Part shown: one piece after another, positions 8,418 through 16,068 of the stretch | Layout: each line of letters starts with the position of its first letter | Numbering within the stretch: the stretch's first letter is position 1 | Source: Jiangella sp. DSM 45060 | GTDB lineage: Bacteria > Actinomycetota > Actinomycetes > Jiangellales > Jiangellaceae | DNA: 64,000 nt | Assembly (NCBI RefSeq): GCF_900105175.1 | Contig: NZ_LT629771.1 | Coordinates: 4,225,501-4,289,500, forward strand | Direction of reading: 5' to 3' | Notes under the pieces: model-generated | Seen by the model: the letters and a program-made list of their open reading frames with translations, nothing else | Database searches by the model: none | Told to the model about the DNA's origin: nothing | Program-made: the position numbers and the translations under genes

Positions 8418-9548
8418 ATGTCGACGAGTCGGGTGGTGCGTGCGGCCGTGGCCGGCGTCGTCGCGGTGCTCGTGCTGCTGCCGGCCGCCGCGCCCGCCCT
8501 CGCGCACGTCCGCACCAGCGACGGCTGGTCCGAGATCCGCGCCGACGGCGACCACGTCCGCTACCGGCTCGGCCTGGAGTACGAGATCCTCGCCCGCGCC
8601 ATCGGCATGGGCGAGCACGCGATCGAGGCGCCCGACGACGGCAGCCGCCGGGCCGAGCTGGCCGCGCAGCGCGACCTGATCGAGACCTACCTGGCCGGCC
8701 GGGTCCGGATCGTCGCCGACGAGATCGAGTGCGCGATGACGCTGGAGGGGTCGGACGTCGAGCAGCGGCCGGCCACCGACGCCACCGCCGAGGACGTCGC
8801 GTACGCCGTGCTCGACCTCGACTACGACTGCCACGGCGCGACGTCGGGCCGGTACGTGCTCGACTACTCGGTGTTCTCCGGTGCCGGCTCGGACGCCGTC
8901 GTCGACGACCACACCACCACCGTCGACTACCACCTCGGCGGCGAGCGCGGCCGGGTCGTGCTGGACGGCGCGTACCCGCGGTTCAGCGCCGGCGAGCAGT
9001 CGTTCGGCGCCGCCGCGCTGCGCTCCGTCGGGCTGGGCGCGGAGCGCGTGCTCACCGGCCTCGACCACGCGCTGTTCGTCGCCGCCCTGGCGATCGGCGC
9101 GACCAGCCTCGCGCAGCTCGCCCGCGGCGTCGCCGCGTTCGCCGTCACCACCGCCGTGGGCCTGCTGGCCGTCGTCGCCGGGTGGGTGAGCCTGCCCGGC
9201 CCGGTGACCGGCGCGCTGGTCGCGCTGTCCGTCGTCTACGTCGCCGCGACGAACCTGGTCGGGCCGGAGTCGCGCTGGCGGCTGCCCGCCGTCGCCGCCG
9301 CCGGGCTGTTGCACGGGTTCGCGCTCGCCGGCGGGCTGCGCTTCGGCGACGACCTCGGCTGGGACCTGGCGACGTCGGTCGCCGGCGTCGGCCTCGGCAT
9401 CGCGCTCGGACAGGCTGTCCTGGCCGCCGGGCTGTTCGCGCTGGCCACCGCCGCCCGGCGCTACGCGTGGTTCTCGCTGGCCCACCTGGTCGCGACCGCC
9501 GTGACCGTCGTGACCGGGCTGGCGTGGTTCGTCCACCGGCTGCTGTGA
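8418..9548 (+). CDS. HupE/UreJ-family membrane protein
   Basis: A 376-residue protein with a signal peptide (residues 1-33, ending ALAHV), an extracytoplasmic domain of about 170 residues, then six or seven hydrophobic helices. The membrane part begins with LTGLDHALFVAALAIG and later has LLHGFALAGGL, the His-bearing motifs typical of HupE/UreJ. Family members are linked to nickel or cobalt uptake in hydrogenase and urease operons; stand-alone secreted-domain versions like this have unknown cargo. The ATG at 8418 follows GGAAGG by five bases, and an earlier in-frame ATG at 8346 lacks a site. It is divergent from the two-component operon and followed 23 bp later by the large phosphoesterase gene. 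Confidence 0.8.
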   Translation: MSTSRVVRAAVAGVVAVLVLLPAAAPALAHVRTSDGWSEIRADGDHVRYRLGLEYEILARAIGMGEHAIEAPDDGSRRAELAAQRDLIETYLAGRVRIVADEIECAMTLEGSDVEQRPATDATAEDVAYAVLDLDYDCHGATSGRYVLDYSVFSGAGSDAVVDDHTTTVDYHLGGERGRVVLDGAYPRFSAGEQSFGAAALRSVGLGAERVLTGLDHALFVAALAIGATSLAQLARGVAAFAVTTAVGLLAVVAGWVSLPGPVTGALVALSVVYVAATNLVGPESRWRLPAVAAAGLLHGFALAGGLRFGDDLGWDLATSVAGVGLGIALGQAVLAAGLFALATAARRYAWFSLAHLVATAVTVVTGLAWFVHRLL

Positions 9549-9571
9549 CCCCCTCAGTGAATGGAGACGAA

Positions 9572-12500
9572 GTGAGAACGCTCAGCGCACGCCTCTCCCC
9601 GGAGGCGCTCGGCCGCTACCGCCGGGCCGTCTACGCGTCGCTGGCCCTGCTGGTCGGCGTCGCGCTCATCGGCCCGGTCGCGACCGTGGTCGCCGAGACC
9701 GTCGCCGCGTCGTCGGCGCAGGTCAGCGGCGTCGTGTACGAGGACGCCAACGGCAACGACCGGCAGGACGCCGGCGAGCCGGGCGTCGAGGGCGTCAGCG
9801 TGTCCGACGGCGTCGCGCTGGTCGAGACCGACGAGCAGGGCCGCTACCAGCTGGAGCTGGACACCGCCCGGCGCGTCACCGACCTCGTGTTCATCACCCA
9901 GCCCGCCGGCTACGTCGTCGGCGCCGACGAGTTCATGACGCCGCGGTTCTACCAGTCCTTCGGCCAGGTGCCGGCCGGTGAGACGCGGACGGCGGACTTC
10001 GCGCTGACCCGCGACCCGGGCAGTCAGGGCTCGACGTTCTCGTTCGCGAACATCGCCGACCCGCACGTCAACCCGCAGCTGCCGGAGCAGATCCACGAGA
10101 TCAACTCCACCTCGAACGACATCCCGTTCATCGCCGTCAGCGGCGACCTCACGAACAACGCGACCGACGCCGAGTTCACGACGTACAAGAAGGCGACGGC
10201 CGGCTCCGAGGTCCCGGTGTGGCCCGCGGTGGGCAACCACGAGTACTTCTCCGGCGGCGGCACCGGATACGCCGCGCGCATCGACAACTACCGTCGTCAC
10301 GTCGGACCGGAGTGGTACTCGTTCGACTACGGCAACCGGCACTTCCTGGTGCTGGAGAACAACGGCCAGGCGCCGTTCGACGAGCAGCTCAGCTGGATCC
10401 GCCGCGACCTCGAGGCCAACGTCGGCGACAAGGAGCTGATCGTCCTCGCTCACCAGCCGATGAACGTGCCGTTCGGCTCGCCGTCGCAGTACGACCAGTA
10501 CGGCGACCTGTTCGACCAGTACGGCGCCGAGCTGATGCTGGTCGGCCACGAGCACTCCAACGACGTCGAGCCGAACAGTGAGTTCGCGCCGTCGGCGAAG
10601 CACATCCAGACGGTGTCCAGCTCGTACACCATCGACAACGCCCCGCGCGGCTTCCGCTTCATCCACCTGCGCGGCGAGACCTTCGAGAACCCGTTCCGCA
10701 TGTACGGCGTGGACCAGGCGCTGACGATCACCAGCCCGGCGCCGGGCAGCGAGGTCGGCGCCGACGGGAACCGCACCGGCTTCCCGGACATCCAGGTCAA
10801 CGCGTACGACACCGCCGACGAGGTGGTGCGGGTCCGTTACCGCATCGACGGCGGCTCGTGGCGGCCGCTGACGCCGTCCGGTGAGCTGACCTGGCACGCG
10901 GAGTTCGCCGGCCGGGCGCCATCCCCGGGCCCGCACAGCATCGAGGTGGAGGCGGTCGACGAGGGCGGGCAGCGCTGGACCGAGTCGGCGGACTTCACCA
11001 TGACGACCGAGCCGCTGGTCGCGCCGGTGGCCGGCGCCGACTGGACCCAGCACCACGGCGACCCCGGGCACACCGGCGTGGCCGCCGACGTCGTCGACCC
11101 CGGGCTGGAGCTGGCGTGGAGCTACCGCACGCCGGGCACGTTCCTCACCGGCTCTCCCACCGTCGTCGACGGCGTCGTGTACGCCGGCACCCGCGACGAG
11201 AACGGCGACGGCAACGCCGCGCTGCACGCCGTCGACCTCGCGACCGGCGAGCAGCTCTGGGAGTACCCGGTGCCGTCGTCGATCGTCGGCACCCCCGCGG
11301 TGCTCGGCGACACCGTGTTCGTCGGCACGCTGCGCGCCCAGCTGTTCGCCGTCGACCGTCACACCGGCGAGCTGGTGTGGCAGCGCGACACCGAGGACGC
11401 GCCGGAGCCGAACAACCAGCGCGCCTACGGCTACTACTCCCCCGCGGTCGCCGACGGCAAGGTGTACTGGGCCTACCAGACCCGCTACGGCGCGGGCAGC
11501 CAGGGCGCGCTGGTCGCGCTCGACCCGGCCGACGGCAGCGAGCTCTGGGCGTCGCCGCTGGCCGGCGCGACGATGAGCGACGGCACCCCGGCCATCGCCG
11601 GCGGTCAGGTCTTCGTCGGCAGCCAGACCGCCGACCAGGTGCTCGCCTTCGACGCCGCCACGGGCGTGCGCCAGTGGCAGTCGTCGGCGGTGCTCGGCGG
11701 CTGGCAGGACGGCATCCCCGCCGCCGCGGACGGCCGGGTGTTCATCGGCTCGAACAACGGCATCATCGCCCGCGACGCCGCGACCGGCCGCGACCTGTGG
11801 AGCTACCGCAGCCCGCACGCGTCGCGGGTCTCCAGCGGCGCGACGCCGTCGGCTCCGGCCGTCGCCGGCGACGTCGTCTACATGGGCTTCCCGAGTGGCG
11901 CGGTGACGGCGCTCGACGCCCGGACCGGCGCGGTGCTGTGGGACCGGCTGCTGCCCGGCGGCACCTACACCGGCGGCGTGCTGTCCTCGCCCGTGCTCAG
12001 CGGCGAGACGCTGTTCGTCGGCGCCAACAACGGCTTCTTCTACGCGCTGGACAGCGTGACCGGGCAGCCGCTGTGGCAGTACGAGATCGGCACCTGGGTC
12101 GGCTCCGGCCCGGCGGTCAGCGGCAACACCGTCGTCGCCGGCGCGTGGGACGGCAACCTCTACGCGTTCACGCCGGGCGGCGAGGCCGCGGCCCGGTGGG
12201 CGCGCGTCACCGGCACCGTGACGGACGAGGCGACCGGCGCGCCGGTCGACGGCGCCCGGGTGGTCGCCACCAGCGGCGGCCAGTCGCTGTCGACGACCAC
12301 CGACTCGCAGGGCCGGTACACGCTCGGCCTGGCGCCCGGCGACTACACGGTGTCGACGGCGAAGCGGGCGTTCCTGCCGGTGGACGGCTCGACGGCGGCG
12401 GTGACGGTCGGCACGACCGGGACGGTCACCGCGGACCTCACGCTGGCCGAGGTGACCGGCCCGACGGCGGGCGCGTCCACGGTGGTACCCGACTACGGCT

Positions 12501-14290
12501 CGGGCAGCCCGCGCACCGACGCGGTGGCCGGCGAGACGTACCACTTCACCATGAACGAGCGGGTCCAGGCGACGATCTCGTCCCGCGCCGCGGCGAACAA
12601 CCAGCCCGGCACGCTCGCCGCCGGCAGCCTCGGCGACCTGTTCCTACTCGACGGCACCGCGCAGGAGACGCTGGACTGGAGCGAGTTGATGCTGTCGCGG
12701 ACGGCCGGCGGGCCCGGCACACCCGACTGGAACCGTCCGAACGACTGGCTGAACCTCACCGACATCGGGACCGAGGGCTCCGCCGTCGTGGCGTCCGGGT
12801 CGGCGAAGGTCGACCCGGACCTGAGGACGACGCTGCGCTACCGCGCGCTGGCCGACGCGCCCGTCGTCAAGATCAGCCTGGAGATCGAGAACACCGGCAC
12901 GTCGGACTTCGACGGGTACTTCCAGTACCTGCTCGACCCCGACAGCGCGCAGGACGTCGCGTATCTGCCGGGCATCGCCCGCAACGACCCCGGCTACGTC
13001 ACGTCCGGCTGGACGGACAACTTCGTGTACGTCGGCTCGACGACGGAGCGGCAGGTCCCGGCGCACGGCGTGGCCTGGCTGGAGGACGAGCCGCACGCGA
13101 TCAGCGGGTTCGGCTACGTCACGGGCGCCTGGTTCGACGCCGCCGTCGACGCCGGGGAGACCCGTACGATCAGCTGGTACCACATCACCGACTACCCGGG
13201 CGCCGGGCACGTCTCGTCGAACGTCGCCGCGTGGGCCGACCGGCTCGACCTGCTCGACGACGAGGTGGCCGACCGGTCCCGCGTCGGCGGCACGGTGACG
13301 CAGGCCGACACCGGCGCCCCGGCGGCCGGGGTGCTGGTCGAGGCGGTGGACGCTTCCGGCGCGGTCGCCGGGTCCGCGCGGACGGGCGCCGACGGGCGGT
13401 ACCTGATGGCGCTGGACCCGGGCGCGTACACGCTGCGGGTGGCGGCGCTCGGGTACGCGACGGCGACGGCGACGGCGTCGGTCGTGGCCGGTTCGACCGC
13501 GACCGCCGACCTCACGCTCGACCCGGTGACCGTGCTGGCCAGTGTGGGCCGGCAGCTCTCCGGCGGCCTCGTCGAGGGCGGCCCGCAGGACGTCGTCATG
13601 GAGAACGACCAGCTCGCGGTGGCCATCGCCAAGGTGTACGACGACGGGCAGCTGCCGGGGTCCACCGCCGGCAAGCCGGTCGACCTCGCCGTGCGCGGCC
13701 GGGCCGACCAGCTGGACTGGCTGAACCTGCCGTACATCGCCGACGAGCAGCCGACCGGCACCGAGGCCTGGCAGCAGACGACGGTCCGCACCTCCGACGT
13801 GGAGGTCGTGCAGGCCACCGGCGACGCGGCGATCGTCCGCACCACCGGGACGTCGTCGGCGCACCCCGGCGTGACCGTCGAGACGACGTACACGATCCGG
13901 CCCGGCGAGCCATGGGTGCGGGCGTCGACCGTCTTCCGCAACACCGGCTCGTCGGACCTCTCGGTGTGGGTGGGCGACGCGATGGACTGGGACGGCGCCG
14001 GGCAGCGGCACGGCGTGGCCGGGCACCCCGTCATCACCACGCCGTACGAGAGCCCGGCCGAGTACGTCCCGGCCGGGCGGTGGATCGGCGGCGCCGGCAC
14101 CGACCCGCAGACCTACGGCGTCGTCTACGCGGGCGACGACGAGTTCACCGCGTACGGCAACGGGAACTGGATCATGAGCCGGTTCCCGGTGACGCTGCCG
14201 GCGGGCGGGTCGTACACGCTGGACCGGCGGGTCGTCGCGGCCGCCAACGGCGGTGCGGCGAACCCGTTCGCGGTGCTCGACCAGCTCTGA
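9572..14290 (+). CDS. Secreted metallophosphoesterase with beta-propeller and carboxypeptidase-regulatory modules
   Basis: A 1572-residue exported protein. After a hydrophobic leader, residues about 45-145 form a small beta domain (VSGVVYEDANGNDRQDAGEPG) of the kind that precedes calcineurin-like phosphoesterases. Residues 150-340 are the phosphoesterase, with metal motifs ADPH, SGDLTNN, GNHEY and VGHEHSND. Residues about 500-870 carry PQQ-type propeller repeats (VYAGTRDENGDG, LWEYPVPSS, ALDARTGAVLWDRLLPGG). Carboxypeptidase-regulatory domains start near 875 and 1235, each followed by a related beta-sandwich of about 250 residues, so the C-terminal half is an internal duplication. The GTG at 9572 follows GGAGA by four bases. 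It is 23 bp after the HupE-type gene. Substrate unknown; a secreted phosphodiesterase or phosphatase is the safest reading. Confidence 0.85.
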   Translation: MRTLSARLSPEALGRYRRAVYASLALLVGVALIGPVATVVAETVAASSAQVSGVVYEDANGNDRQDAGEPGVEGVSVSDGVALVETDEQGRYQLELDTARRVTDLVFITQPAGYVVGADEFMTPRFYQSFGQVPAGETRTADFALTRDPGSQGSTFSFANIADPHVNPQLPEQIHEINSTSNDIPFIAVSGDLTNNATDAEFTTYKKATAGSEVPVWPAVGNHEYFSGGGTGYAARIDNYRRHVGPEWYSFDYGNRHFLVLENNGQAPFDEQLSWIRRDLEANVGDKELIVLAHQPMNVPFGSPSQYDQYGDLFDQYGAELMLVGHEHSNDVEPNSEFAPSAKHIQTVSSSYTIDNAPRGFRFIHLRGETFENPFRMYGVDQALTITSPAPGSEVGADGNRTGFPDIQVNAYDTADEVVRVRYRIDGGSWRPLTPSGELTWHAEFAGRAPSPGPHSIEVEAVDEGGQRWTESADFTMTTEPLVAPVAGADWTQHHGDPGHTGVAADVVDPGLELAWSYRTPGTFLTGSPTVVDGVVYAGTRDENGDGNAALHAVDLATGEQLWEYPVPSSIVGTPAVLGDTVFVGTLRAQLFAVDRHTGELVWQRDTEDAPEPNNQRAYGYYSPAVADGKVYWAYQTRYGAGSQGALVALDPADGSELWASPLAGATMSDGTPAIAGGQVFVGSQTADQVLAFDAATGVRQWQSSAVLGGWQDGIPAAADGRVFIGSNNGIIARDAATGRDLWSYRSPHASRVSSGATPSAPAVAGDVVYMGFPSGAVTALDARTGAVLWDRLLPGGTYTGGVLSSPVLSGETLFVGANNGFFYALDSVTGQPLWQYEIGTWVGSGPAVSGNTVVAGAWDGNLYAFTPGGEAAARWARVTGTVTDEATGAPVDGARVVATSGGQSLSTTTDSQGRYTLGLAPGDYTVSTAKRAFLPVDGSTAAVTVGTTGTVTADLTLAEVTGPTAGASTVVPDYGSGSPRTDAVAGETYHFTMNERVQATISSRAAANNQPGTLAAGSLGDLFLLDGTAQETLDWSELMLSRTAGGPGTPDWNRPNDWLNLTDIGTEGSAVVASGSAKVDPDLRTTLRYRALADAPVVKISLEIENTGTSDFDGYFQYLLDPDSAQDVAYLPGIARNDPGYVTSGWTDNFVYVGSTTERQVPAHGVAWLEDEPHAISGFGYVTGAWFDAAVDAGETRTISWYHITDYPGAGHVSSNVAAWADRLDLLDDEVADRSRVGGTVTQADTGAPAAGVLVEAVDASGAVAGSARTGADGRYLMALDPGAYTLRVAALGYATATATASVVAGSTATADLTLDPVTVLASVGRQLSGGLVEGGPQDVVMENDQLAVAIAKVYDDGQLPGSTAGKPVDLAVRGRADQLDWLNLPYIADEQPTGTEAWQQTTVRTSDVEVVQATGDAAIVRTTGTSSAHPGVTVETTYTIRPGEPWVRASTVFRNTGSSDLSVWVGDAMDWDGAGQRHGVAGHPVITTPYESPAEYVPAGRWIGGAGTDPQTYGVVYAGDDEFTAYGNGNWIMSRFPVTLPAGGSYTLDRRVVAAANGGAANPFAVLDQL

Positions 14291-14301
14291 CCGACTGCTC
14301 T

Positions 14302-14339
14302 CGTCCCCGTCGTCCGGCACGTGCCGGGCGGCGGGGACG
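14302..14339 (+). terminator. Hairpin terminator
   Basis: CGTCCCCG (14302-14309) pairs with CGGGGACG (14332-14339), and the interior CCGGCACGTGCCGG adds a second palindromic stem. It begins 11 bp after the stop of the phosphoesterase gene. No T-run. Confidence 0.7.
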
Positions 14340-14382
14340 ACCGCGTTCGATGAGAGTTCGCGGCCGGGCGATGAGCTGGCGA

Positions 14383-14396
14383 TGAGAACGCTCTCA
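14383..14396. promoter_or_regulatory. Possible LacI-family operator
   Basis: TGAGAACGCTCTCA has five-base inverted arms (TGAGA/TCTCA) around ACGC and resembles LacI-type sites with a central CG step. It lies 83 bp upstream of the acidic surface protein gene. No LacI gene is visible in this window. Confidence 0.3.
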
Positions 14397-14478
14397 ACAA
14401 CGCCGTTCTCGCTGGCTTCCGGGCGCTGACCAGGACAGATTGAGGTCGGGAAGACCAACCGACACGAAGGAGCCAGCC

Positions 14479-14907
14479 ATGCGTTCCAGCAGGATCAGCC
14501 TCGCCGCGGCGCTCGCCGCGGCCGCCGGACTGACCGGCGCCGGCGTCGCCCTCGCCGCCCCCGCGACCGCCGTCGATGCCGTCGCCGTCGCCGCCGACGA
14601 CGACGCGGGAGATGACGACGCGGGAGACGACGACGGCGGTGATGACGACGGTTCCGGCGACGACGGCGACGACGGCCAGGCGCCGAGCGGCGGCGTGAAC
14701 ACCGGCGTCACCGCGAGCGACGACGACGGCTCCGGCGACGATGACGGGGACGACGACGGCGGGCAGGCGCCCAGCGGCGGCGTCGACACCGGCGCCGGCG
14801 GCACCGCCGACGGCGACCTCGGCTGGCTGGCGCCCGGCGCGCTGGTCGGGCTGGCCGGCGTCGGCGGCGCGGGCCTGCTCTGGCGCCGGTTCCGGACCGA
14901 GAGCTGA
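14479..14907 (+). CDS. Acidic cell-surface protein with C-terminal membrane anchor; probable sortase substrate
   Basis: A 142-residue protein. Residues 1-32 are a signal peptide ending near AAPATA. Residues 40-95 are almost only Asp and Gly, likely disordered and cation-binding. The ten-residue motif QAPSGGV(N/D)TG appears twice, at 67-76 and 96-105, separated by an Asp-rich spacer. The second copy is followed by AGGTADGDLGWLAPG, a hydrophobic helix (about 118-134) and the basic tail WRRFRTES. That order (motif, helix, positive tail) is that of a sortase substrate, though there is no LPXTG. The ATG has GAAGGAG six bases upstream. The sortase gene begins 8 bp after the stop, which strongly supports a functional pair. 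Confidence 0.75.
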   Translation: MRSSRISLAAALAAAAGLTGAGVALAAPATAVDAVAVAADDDAGDDDAGDDDGGDDDGSGDDGDDGQAPSGGVNTGVTASDDDGSGDDDGDDDGGQAPSGGVDTGAGGTADGDLGWLAPGALVGLAGVGGAGLLWRRFRTES

Positions 14908-14915
14908 CCGGCGCC

Positions 14916-15566
14916 GTGCACCGGACCCGCGACGGCTGCCGCCCCGGGCGGGTGGCGGCCGTCGCGGCCCTGGCCGTCCTCCTGGCGGCGGCGTGCGGCG
15001 GCGACCCGTCCGGCACGAGCACGGACGCAGGCGCCGCGACCGCGCCCGCCGTGCCGGTCGCGCCGACCACCGCACCGCCGAGCGAACCGCCCAGCACCCC
15101 GTCGGCCGTCCCCGTGACGGAGCAGCTGGCCGACCCGGTCGCGGTGACCGTCCCGTCGGCCGGCATCGACACCGACGTCGTCCCGATCGCCGTCGACGGC
15201 GACAACGTCCTCGTCCCGCCCCCGTACGGCGACGCCGGCTGGTGGCAGGCGGGGCCAGAGCCGGGCGAGAACGGCGCGGCGGTGATCGCGGGCCACCTCG
15301 ACAACCGCGACGGGCCGGACGTGTTCTACCGGCTCGGCGACGTCGCGCCGGGCGACGAGATCGTCGTCACCCGCGCCGACGGCGGCACGTCCGCCTTCCG
15401 CGTCGTCGAGGTCGGCCAGTACTCGCAGGACGACTTCCCGACCGACGCCGTCTACGGCGGCCCGGACGACCGGCCGCTGCTGCGGCTGATCACCTGCGGC
15501 GGCGAGTACGACCGCGAGCTGGGCCGCTACCGCGACAACGTGGTGGTGTTCGCCGAGCCGGCCTGA
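14916..15566 (+). CDS. Class F sortase
   Basis: A 216-residue transpeptidase-type enzyme. The N-terminal segment is hydrophobic and has a lipobox-like end (LAAAC), then a Pro/Thr-rich linker to about residue 68. The sortase domain carries the catalytic His127 (AGHLDN), Cys194 (LITCGGEYD) and Arg206 (GRYRDNVVVFA), all in the expected order and spacing. Class F enzymes are common in Actinobacteria; many have no proven substrate. The start is a GTG at 14916, eight bases after the acidic protein gene, so the two are probably one transcript and the acidic protein the likely substrate. Confidence 0.9.
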   Translation: MHRTRDGCRPGRVAAVAALAVLLAAACGGDPSGTSTDAGAATAPAVPVAPTTAPPSEPPSTPSAVPVTEQLADPVAVTVPSAGIDTDVVPIAVDGDNVLVPPPYGDAGWWQAGPEPGENGAAVIAGHLDNRDGPDVFYRLGDVAPGDEIVVTRADGGTSAFRVVEVGQYSQDDFPTDAVYGGPDDRPLLRLITCGGEYDRELGRYRDNVVVFAEPA

Positions 15567-15624
15567 GGGCCGTCCGCACGTCCGGCCTTTCGGAGGTGTC
15601 GCCACGTTCTGCGACACTGACGGC

Positions 15625-16068
15625 ATGCGCGCAGCGCGGCCGGTTCCGCTCGCGCTCGCCGCCGCTCTGCTGGTGGCGACCGGGTGCGGGTCCGGCGACC
15701 CGGGCACCAGCACGGGCGAGCAGGCATGTGCCGCCCCGGCCACCGTCGTCGCGGCCGAGACGGTCACACCGGGCCAGACGGTCCTGGTCACCGGGCTCGG
15801 GCTGTGGACCGGATGCGTCGACAGCGGCGCGGCCGCCGAGGATGGCCCGGTCGTCTACGACGGCTCGGACGTCGATCCGGAGCTGCTCACCGGGCAGGCC
15901 GTCACCTGGCGGCAGGGCGACGACGTCGTCGAGCTGGCGGTGGTGGACGCGGGAGTGGACGGGTCGGCGGCGGCCGTAGTGACGATCCCGGCCGGCGCCC
16001 GGGACGGGACGGGTGAGCTCGCGGTCGGCATCGCCACGCCCGTCGTGGTCAGCGTGGTGGGTCCGTAG
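15625..16068 (+). CDS. Small lipoprotein, unrecognised
   Basis: A 147-residue protein with a signal sequence and lipobox (LLVATGC, Cys about 21), then a Ser/Thr/Gly linker and a compact beta-rich domain of about 110 residues (TVTPGQTVLVTGLGLWTGC and VVTIPAGARDGTGELAV). Two Cys in the mature part could pair. I do not recognise the family. It ends 20 bp inside the 3' end of the convergent TetR gene. It may belong with the sortase pair, 58 bp upstream, or stand alone. Confidence 0.65.
   Translation: MRAARPVPLALAAALLVATGCGSGDPGTSTGEQACAAPATVVAAETVTPGQTVLVTGLGLWTGCVDSGAAAEDGPVVYDGSDVDPELLTGQAVTWRQGDDVVELAVVDAGVDGSAAAVVTIPAGARDGTGELAVGIATPVVVSVVGP

Follow-up and report, generated by a model that had tools for sequence, protein, structure and literature searches.

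A putative class F sortase substrate in Jiangella carries the catalogued GVDTG sorting signal and a second, inner copy of its motif maintained by selection

The window analysed here, 64,000 nucleotides from the genome of Jiangella sp. DSM 45060 (7.49 Mb, single contig), contains two adjacent genes that encode a predicted secreted, Asp-rich protein and a sortase (Table 1). The GTG start of the sortase gene lies 8 bp past the stop codon of the upstream gene. The motif QAPSGGV(N/D)TG occurs twice in the upstream protein, with nine of ten residues identical between the inner and the terminal copy; an Asp-rich spacer separates the two, and a hydrophobic helix and an Arg tail follow. No LPXTG-type pentapeptide was found on reading the 142 residues, and the lysine count is zero. 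The original prediction had described this arrangement, and the sequence confirms it.

Table 1. Features of the sortase gene and its upstream neighbour in the window
Feature	Position	Strand	Details
Secreted Asp-rich class F sortase substrate (predicted), 142 aa	14479..14907	+	NF058571 match; no lysine; ATG at 14479; stop codon 14905-14907
Signal peptide, residues ~1-27	14479..14559	+	Read by eye (Arg-rich N-terminus, hydrophobic core and ALA-A); predicted cleavage site
Asp/Gly-rich stalk, residues 40-66	14596..14676	+
Inner motif copy QAPSGGVNTG, residues 67-76	14677..14706	+	Peptide letters for the site: QAPSGGVNTGVTA
Asp-rich spacer separating the two copies	14707..14763	+	VTASDDDGSGDDDGDDDGG
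C-terminal motif copy QAPSGGVDTG, residues 96-105	14764..14793	+	Head of sorting signal; NF058571 match start; peptide letters for the site: QAPSGGVDTGAGG
Hydrophobic segment, residues ~116-135	14824..14883	+	By eye
Arg tail RRFRTES	14884..14904	+	By eye
Class F sortase, 216 aa	14916..15566	+	GTG start at 14916; PF04203, NF033748
Lipobox-like Cys27 of sortase (LLAAAC-GG)	14994..14996	+	Pattern match
His127 of sortase	15294..15296	+	Conserved in 100/101 aligned class F sortases
Arg190 of sortase, four residues ahead of Cys	15483..15485	+	92/101 aligned class F sortases
Catalytic Cys194 of sortase	15495..15497	+	Conserved in 100/101 aligned class F sortases
Asn208 of sortase, last strand	15537..15539	+	97/101; register by eye

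Two antisense ORFs (14125-15075 and 14394-15791) hit neither a Pfam nor an NCBIfam family at E 0.01; they were rejected as real genes and are taken as shadow frames of GC-rich DNA. A small lipoprotein-like ORF (15625-16068) sits between the sortase gene and a TetR gene; in tblastn searches of 19 Jiangella loci the former was matched in 5 (one partial, two being one sequence) and the latter was found in 17. A large upstream ORF (8729-14290) encodes metallophosphatase, PQQ-propeller, CarboxypepD_reg and SdrD_B-like domains, and no link between it and the motif was seen.

The terminal copy is not a new signal: NCBIfam already curates it as the GVDTG sorting domain (NF058571, GVDTG_CTERM). The terminal copy, together with the helix and the Arg tail behind it, matches this domain at residues 98-137 with 35.5 bits (cut-off 29). 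With its 44 positions the model represents a single signal at the C-terminus, and a multi-copy layout falls outside it; on the five-copy protein L305 a single C-terminal stretch was reported.

At least 84 of 148 genomes of the class encode a class F sortase (E 1e-10 or better) and at least 45 contain a GVDTG match (E 1e-4 or better; at least 67 matches in total), these counts being lower bounds because in many genomes just some of the first-look candidates were scored. When the 67 matches were compared with the best-scoring 150 class F sortases, which came from 64 genomes, 48 lay upstream of one in the same orientation, 180-1563 bp away, 6 had one within 1.5 kb in the opposite orientation and 13 had none of the 150 nearby. 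Below the model cut-off, 15 of 20 matches were near one of these 150 and 5 were not; above it, 35 of 47 had one on the same strand, 4 on the opposite strand and 8 had none. For six of these eight, searching the loci with a class F profile recovered a same-strand sortase, which in L064 is split over two frames. The remaining two are the match in G111, for which a sortase lies 221 bp away only if the contig is circular, and that in G069:C194, which sits at a contig end. In all, a class F sortase is close to 46 of the 47 matches above the cut-off. The original prediction had proposed examining proteins next to class F sortases for PxGGVxTG ahead of a helix, and this survey bears it out; its suggestion of a non-standard class F signal is supported, the signal being one that NCBIfam already curates. 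Because the window protein matches NF058571 and the signal is so consistently paired with class F sortases, the protein is very likely the cognate substrate of its neighbour.

Across the phylum the signal was found in 8 of 119 genomes, four of them from other classes. With E values up to 1 the model gave matches in 10 of the 14 control genomes, all of them below the cut-off, and at the thresholds applied in the surveys it gave none in the 14. In the window genome the window protein is the only one to pass the NF058571 cut-off. A second sortase, L005, scores 165.1 bits, slightly below the class F cut-off, and the protein upstream of it, which contains PAGGVQTG, falls under the NF058571 cut-off. 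Upstream of a third, class F-like sortase (L006) lies a Thr-Pro-rich stalk protein with IPAGGPAAG, a helix and an Arg tail, the motif of which we read as an Ala form of the signal. No comparable protein was present in the 1.5-kb flanks of three sortases that are not in the class F model list (class E by eye). At locus L064 a GVDTG match with PVGGVDSGLGG ahead of the helix accompanies a sortase split over two frames, possibly a decaying pair.

Viewed from the sortases, a flanking ORF with a C-terminal helix and basic tail was found for 137 of the best 150 class F enzymes, upstream on the same strand for 118, by a loose pattern search run without a control. The strict motif G[VAMIP]xTG was present in the last 75 residues of a flanking ORF for 63 of the best 150, and a looser form, again without a control, for 114. 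The P1 residue in 107 scored neighbours was Thr in 71, Ala in 29 and Gly in 7. On the sortase tree, a quick one flagged for long branches, this letter required 11 changes against a shuffled mean of 32.4 (0 of 200 shuffles as low), a clustering that may reflect common descent only. The Ala and Gly forms, together with quite different endings beside class F sortases, count against one single fixed motif. The original prediction held that neighbours lacking the motif in relatives would speak against it; in part this is so, many class F neighbours having Ala or Gly for Thr or a different ending.

The window sortase matches PF04203 (E 2.5e-23) and is placed in class F by NF033748 with 167.9 bits, barely above the cut-off of 166. 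Its AlphaFold model (mean pLDDT 84) has the sortase beta-barrel fold, and the best Foldseek match was sortase C-1 of A. oris (E 7.7e-10, Z 16.7). A profile of 101 class F sortases searched against solved sequences gave five matches at E 0.001, all distant, and 25 at E 0.05; P0002 as a single query gave none at E 0.01. The N-terminus of the window sortase is lipobox-like, a feature shared by roughly one in four class F sortases surveyed: a pattern search flagged 40 of the best 150, reduced to 36 when L052, L060, L225 and L230 were judged false by eye. Class F sortases of this kind may be lipoproteins.

The active-site residues were compared in an alignment of 101 of the best 150 class F sortases. 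According to the available part of PMC13257024 all sortases share His-Cys-Arg, whereas an Arg after the Cys is absent in 42 of the best 150 class F domains. Asn208 possibly occupies the position of the usual Arg, a register set by eye and not confirmed by a MAFFT alignment with class E-like sortases, in which their Arg falls opposite Gly203. The catalytic Arg of class F sortases may have shifted to the neighbouring strand, again with the register read by eye.

Conservation of the inner copy was examined in 12 Jiangella genomes, all of which encode an orthologous sortase (66-100% identity); 11 gave a complete substrate orthologue. L101 and L126, the loci of which stop close to or within the sortase gene, were excluded. 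All seven named loci with the closest sortases (73-88% identity) belong to Jiangella, and the next stands at 51%. The inner copy is present in all 11 complete orthologues, and twice in L097. The T-G pair is retained in 11 of the 12 inner copies, the exception being L093, with GGVNSG inside (Ser for Thr) and SSGVDTG at the terminal site; the terminal motif of L103 is GGIDTG. A Gly two residues after TG is found in the terminal copies and is absent from the inner ones. The orthologues contain 22-63 Asp each, and lysine occurs only at residue 5, within the signal peptide, in 7 of 11, leaving the mature proteins without it.

The inner copy is under purifying selection. Over the 11 orthologues pN/pS was 0.127 for the inner and 0.122 for the terminal copy, compared with 0.321 for the first 30 codons and 0.224 for the last 26. 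Mapped on the sortase gene tree, several branches of which are weak, the inner copy underwent 16 codon changes, 13 silent and 3 altering an amino acid (P = 1.5e-5 against a neutral expectation of 72% amino-acid changes), and the terminal copy 21, of which 4 altered an amino acid. Asn is found in 11 of 11 inner copies, and the terminal ones have Asp in 10 of 11, a consistent difference indicating that the copies are old. Shuffling the last 200 preceding residues yielded a core match of at least 6/8 ending in T/A-G in none of 300 shuffles, and within each genome 1-5 silent differences separate the codons of the residues common to both copies. An origin of the inner copy by chance or recent slippage is excluded by these silent differences and by the purifying selection on both copies. 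Further loci of the family to which Jiangella belongs carry other neighbours. At two loci of another genus of this family (L280 and L282) the upstream protein is acidic with one terminal signal of the RIDAGEG type, suggesting that duplication of the motif took place on the lineage leading to Jiangella.

Inner copies are also found elsewhere in the class. Of 86 proteins in which the terminal core is clear, 10 also contain an inner copy matching at least 6/8 residues: five from Jiangella, four from genus g22 and one from family f17 (L228, with APRGGVDTG twice around DDDDDG); shuffled sequences gave a match in 0-2%. Named Streptomyces loci (L133, L143, L144 and L148) carry the same arrays, and on this basis g22 is read as Streptomyces. 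Searching with the L188 sortase gave matches in 42 of 61 g22 genomes, and the 30 loci with the best matches, a selected set as opposed to a random draw, were inspected (L310 and L312 are truncated at the 5' end; L297 and L299 are loci of the same proteins as L180 and L162). The motif was upstream in 27 and lacking in 3. One copy was present in 4 of the 27 proteins, two in 12, three in 6, four in 3 and five in 2, so that 23 substrates of this related sortase have 2-5 copies. P1 was Thr in 31 and Ala in 10 of 41 inner copies, and Thr in 25 and Ala in 2 of 27 terminal ones. The g22 inner copies continue T/A-GGG (GSG in two copies of L307), and the spacers are lysine-rich, frequently with K right before the motif. 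In L143, L312, L313 and L314 the inner copies read HAGGG and the last alone HTGGG; in L144 and L292 the arrangement is the opposite, with HTGGG inside and HAGGG at the end.

For the 10 multi-copy proteins found class-wide, this label required five changes (gains or losses) on the sortase tree, at least three of them forced by starred branches, compared with a shuffled mean of 9.8 (0 of 500 shuffles as low as five). This number of changes makes a single origin without loss unlikely.

The layout, the match to a curated signal, the class-wide pairing, the purifying selection on the inner copy and the recurrence of multi-copy proteins are established directly; from them we infer cleavage, an acceptor and any inner-site product. 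We consider it reasonably probable that the two genes form a dedicated sortase/substrate pair in which the inner copy is a second recognition site, most likely also processed. After export, the C-terminal helix would keep the substrate in the membrane. The sortase would cut the terminal copy between Thr104 and Gly105 (SGGVDT|G) and pass the acyl group to a wall precursor, placing a lysine-free polyaspartate stalk on the wall, where it would probably serve as a wall-bound polyanion or cation binder. This step would be standard sorting, with a class F specificity for GGVx(T/A)G. The inner copy, matching the full signal in its pre-cut part and in TG, would be a second true site for the same enzyme, maintained by selection; with both precursor and sortase held at the membrane, it would come within reach of the enzyme. 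Cleavage at this site would attach the outer part to the wall, and the remaining stub would retain the terminal signal. One precursor could thereby yield anchored forms of two lengths, short and long, or a pair of anchored pieces. In most g22 proteins the inner cut would leave GGG at the end of the stub.

Alternatively, the terminal copy alone may be sorted, the inner one acting as a flexible or binding peptide with a different role, or raising sortase occupancy without being cut. The missing Gly after the inner TG in Jiangella, the Ser of L093 and the inner copies of L312, L313 and L314, all with Ala at P1 and Thr in the last copy only, would fit this explanation. However, T-G is kept in all but one of the Jiangella inner copies, Thr is present in 31 of the 41 g22 inner copies, and Ala is also found at terminal sites beside class F sortases (29 of 107). 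We regard sorting from the terminal copy alone as rather unlikely, and note that the same features are the weak points of the inner site in the two-site model: GGVNSG in L093, the absent Gly, and Ala at P1 in 10 of 41 g22 inner copies against 2 of 27 terminal ones. Two published observations also weigh against the two-site model, the available parts of the sources reporting that the C. acnes class F enzyme assayed uses an LPXTG-type peptide (PMC7451113) and that deletion of all four Actinoplanes class F sortases brought no phenotypic change (PMC13251363).

The pieces might also be joined head to tail, with the N-terminal Gly of the stub (GGG in most g22 copies) accepting the acyl group of another precursor, giving growth that requires no lysine. 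The lysine-free mature Jiangella proteins and the T/A-GGG of g22 inner copies (GSG in the two L307 copies) are compatible with such chains, and the C. acnes class F sortase takes N-terminally oligoglycine-modified acceptors, as stated in the accessible portion of PMC7451113. Against this, the Jiangella stub would start with Gly-Val or Gly-Ile, the wall precursor would compete, and the chains are candidate products only; we consider them improbable.

That the protein is an ordinary tail-anchored membrane protein and no sortase substrate appears very improbable given the curated sorting domain and the 46 of 47 pairings. A precedent for such a reading is found in Actinoplanes, where AMIS_11010 and AMIS_36440, compared here by description only, have a signal peptide, helix and basic tail beside a class F sortase and no pentapeptide; the available text of PMC13251363 does not count these two as substrates because the pentapeptide is lacking, and its authors allow that they may still be.

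Pilus-type cross-linking requires a lysine acceptor. Class C pilus-type systems likewise have more than one sortase-related site per protein; the window protein differs in having no acceptor lysine and two copies of the donor motif instead. The proposal in the original prediction that the second copy permits cross-linking can be set aside as scarcely credible: the two copies and the lysine-rich g22 spacers might invite it and the lysine of a partner protein could still serve, but the 11 Jiangella orthologues have none beyond residue 5, and cross-linking of the window protein to itself is ruled out.

What is unusual at this locus is the inner copy kept by selection, the sorting signal itself being already known. 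The portion of PMC5148588 consulted lists sorting signals for each class from A to E but has none for class F, and that of PMC13251363 (2026), in which all four class F sortases were deleted in Actinoplanes, calls the physiological role of the class unknown. C. acnes (P. acnes) SrtF, also of class F, was assayed on LPQTGE, according to the part of PMC7451113 available, whereas the neighbours described here end in the PxGGVxTG type. The Tat-dependent Streptomyces sortase substrates in the accessible text of PMC10924467 are of the LPXTG and LAETG kinds and not of the GVDTG type. A search for GVDTG and related motif strings, outside which most subscription papers fell, returned no sortase paper by title, and the accessible parts of papers on class F sortases, on sorting signals in Streptomyces and on several or internal LPXTG motifs report no motif arrays.

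We tentatively suggest, as a speculative generalization, that some class F sortases may cut tandem arrays of their own motif within charged, disordered stalks, giving several wall-anchored or glycine-rejoined pieces, so that the enzyme would set stalk length post-translationally; the arrays in Jiangella (2-3 copies), in g22, taken as Streptomyces (2-5), and in a further family (2) would then be distinct instances. Multi-copy substrates pose the question of whether one sortase processes more than one site per protein. Searches confined to LPXTG-like pentapeptides, as in the available part of PMC13251363, miss candidates with PxGGVx(T/A)G, and this signal, together with its pairing with class F sortases, supplies ready candidates for class F substrates.
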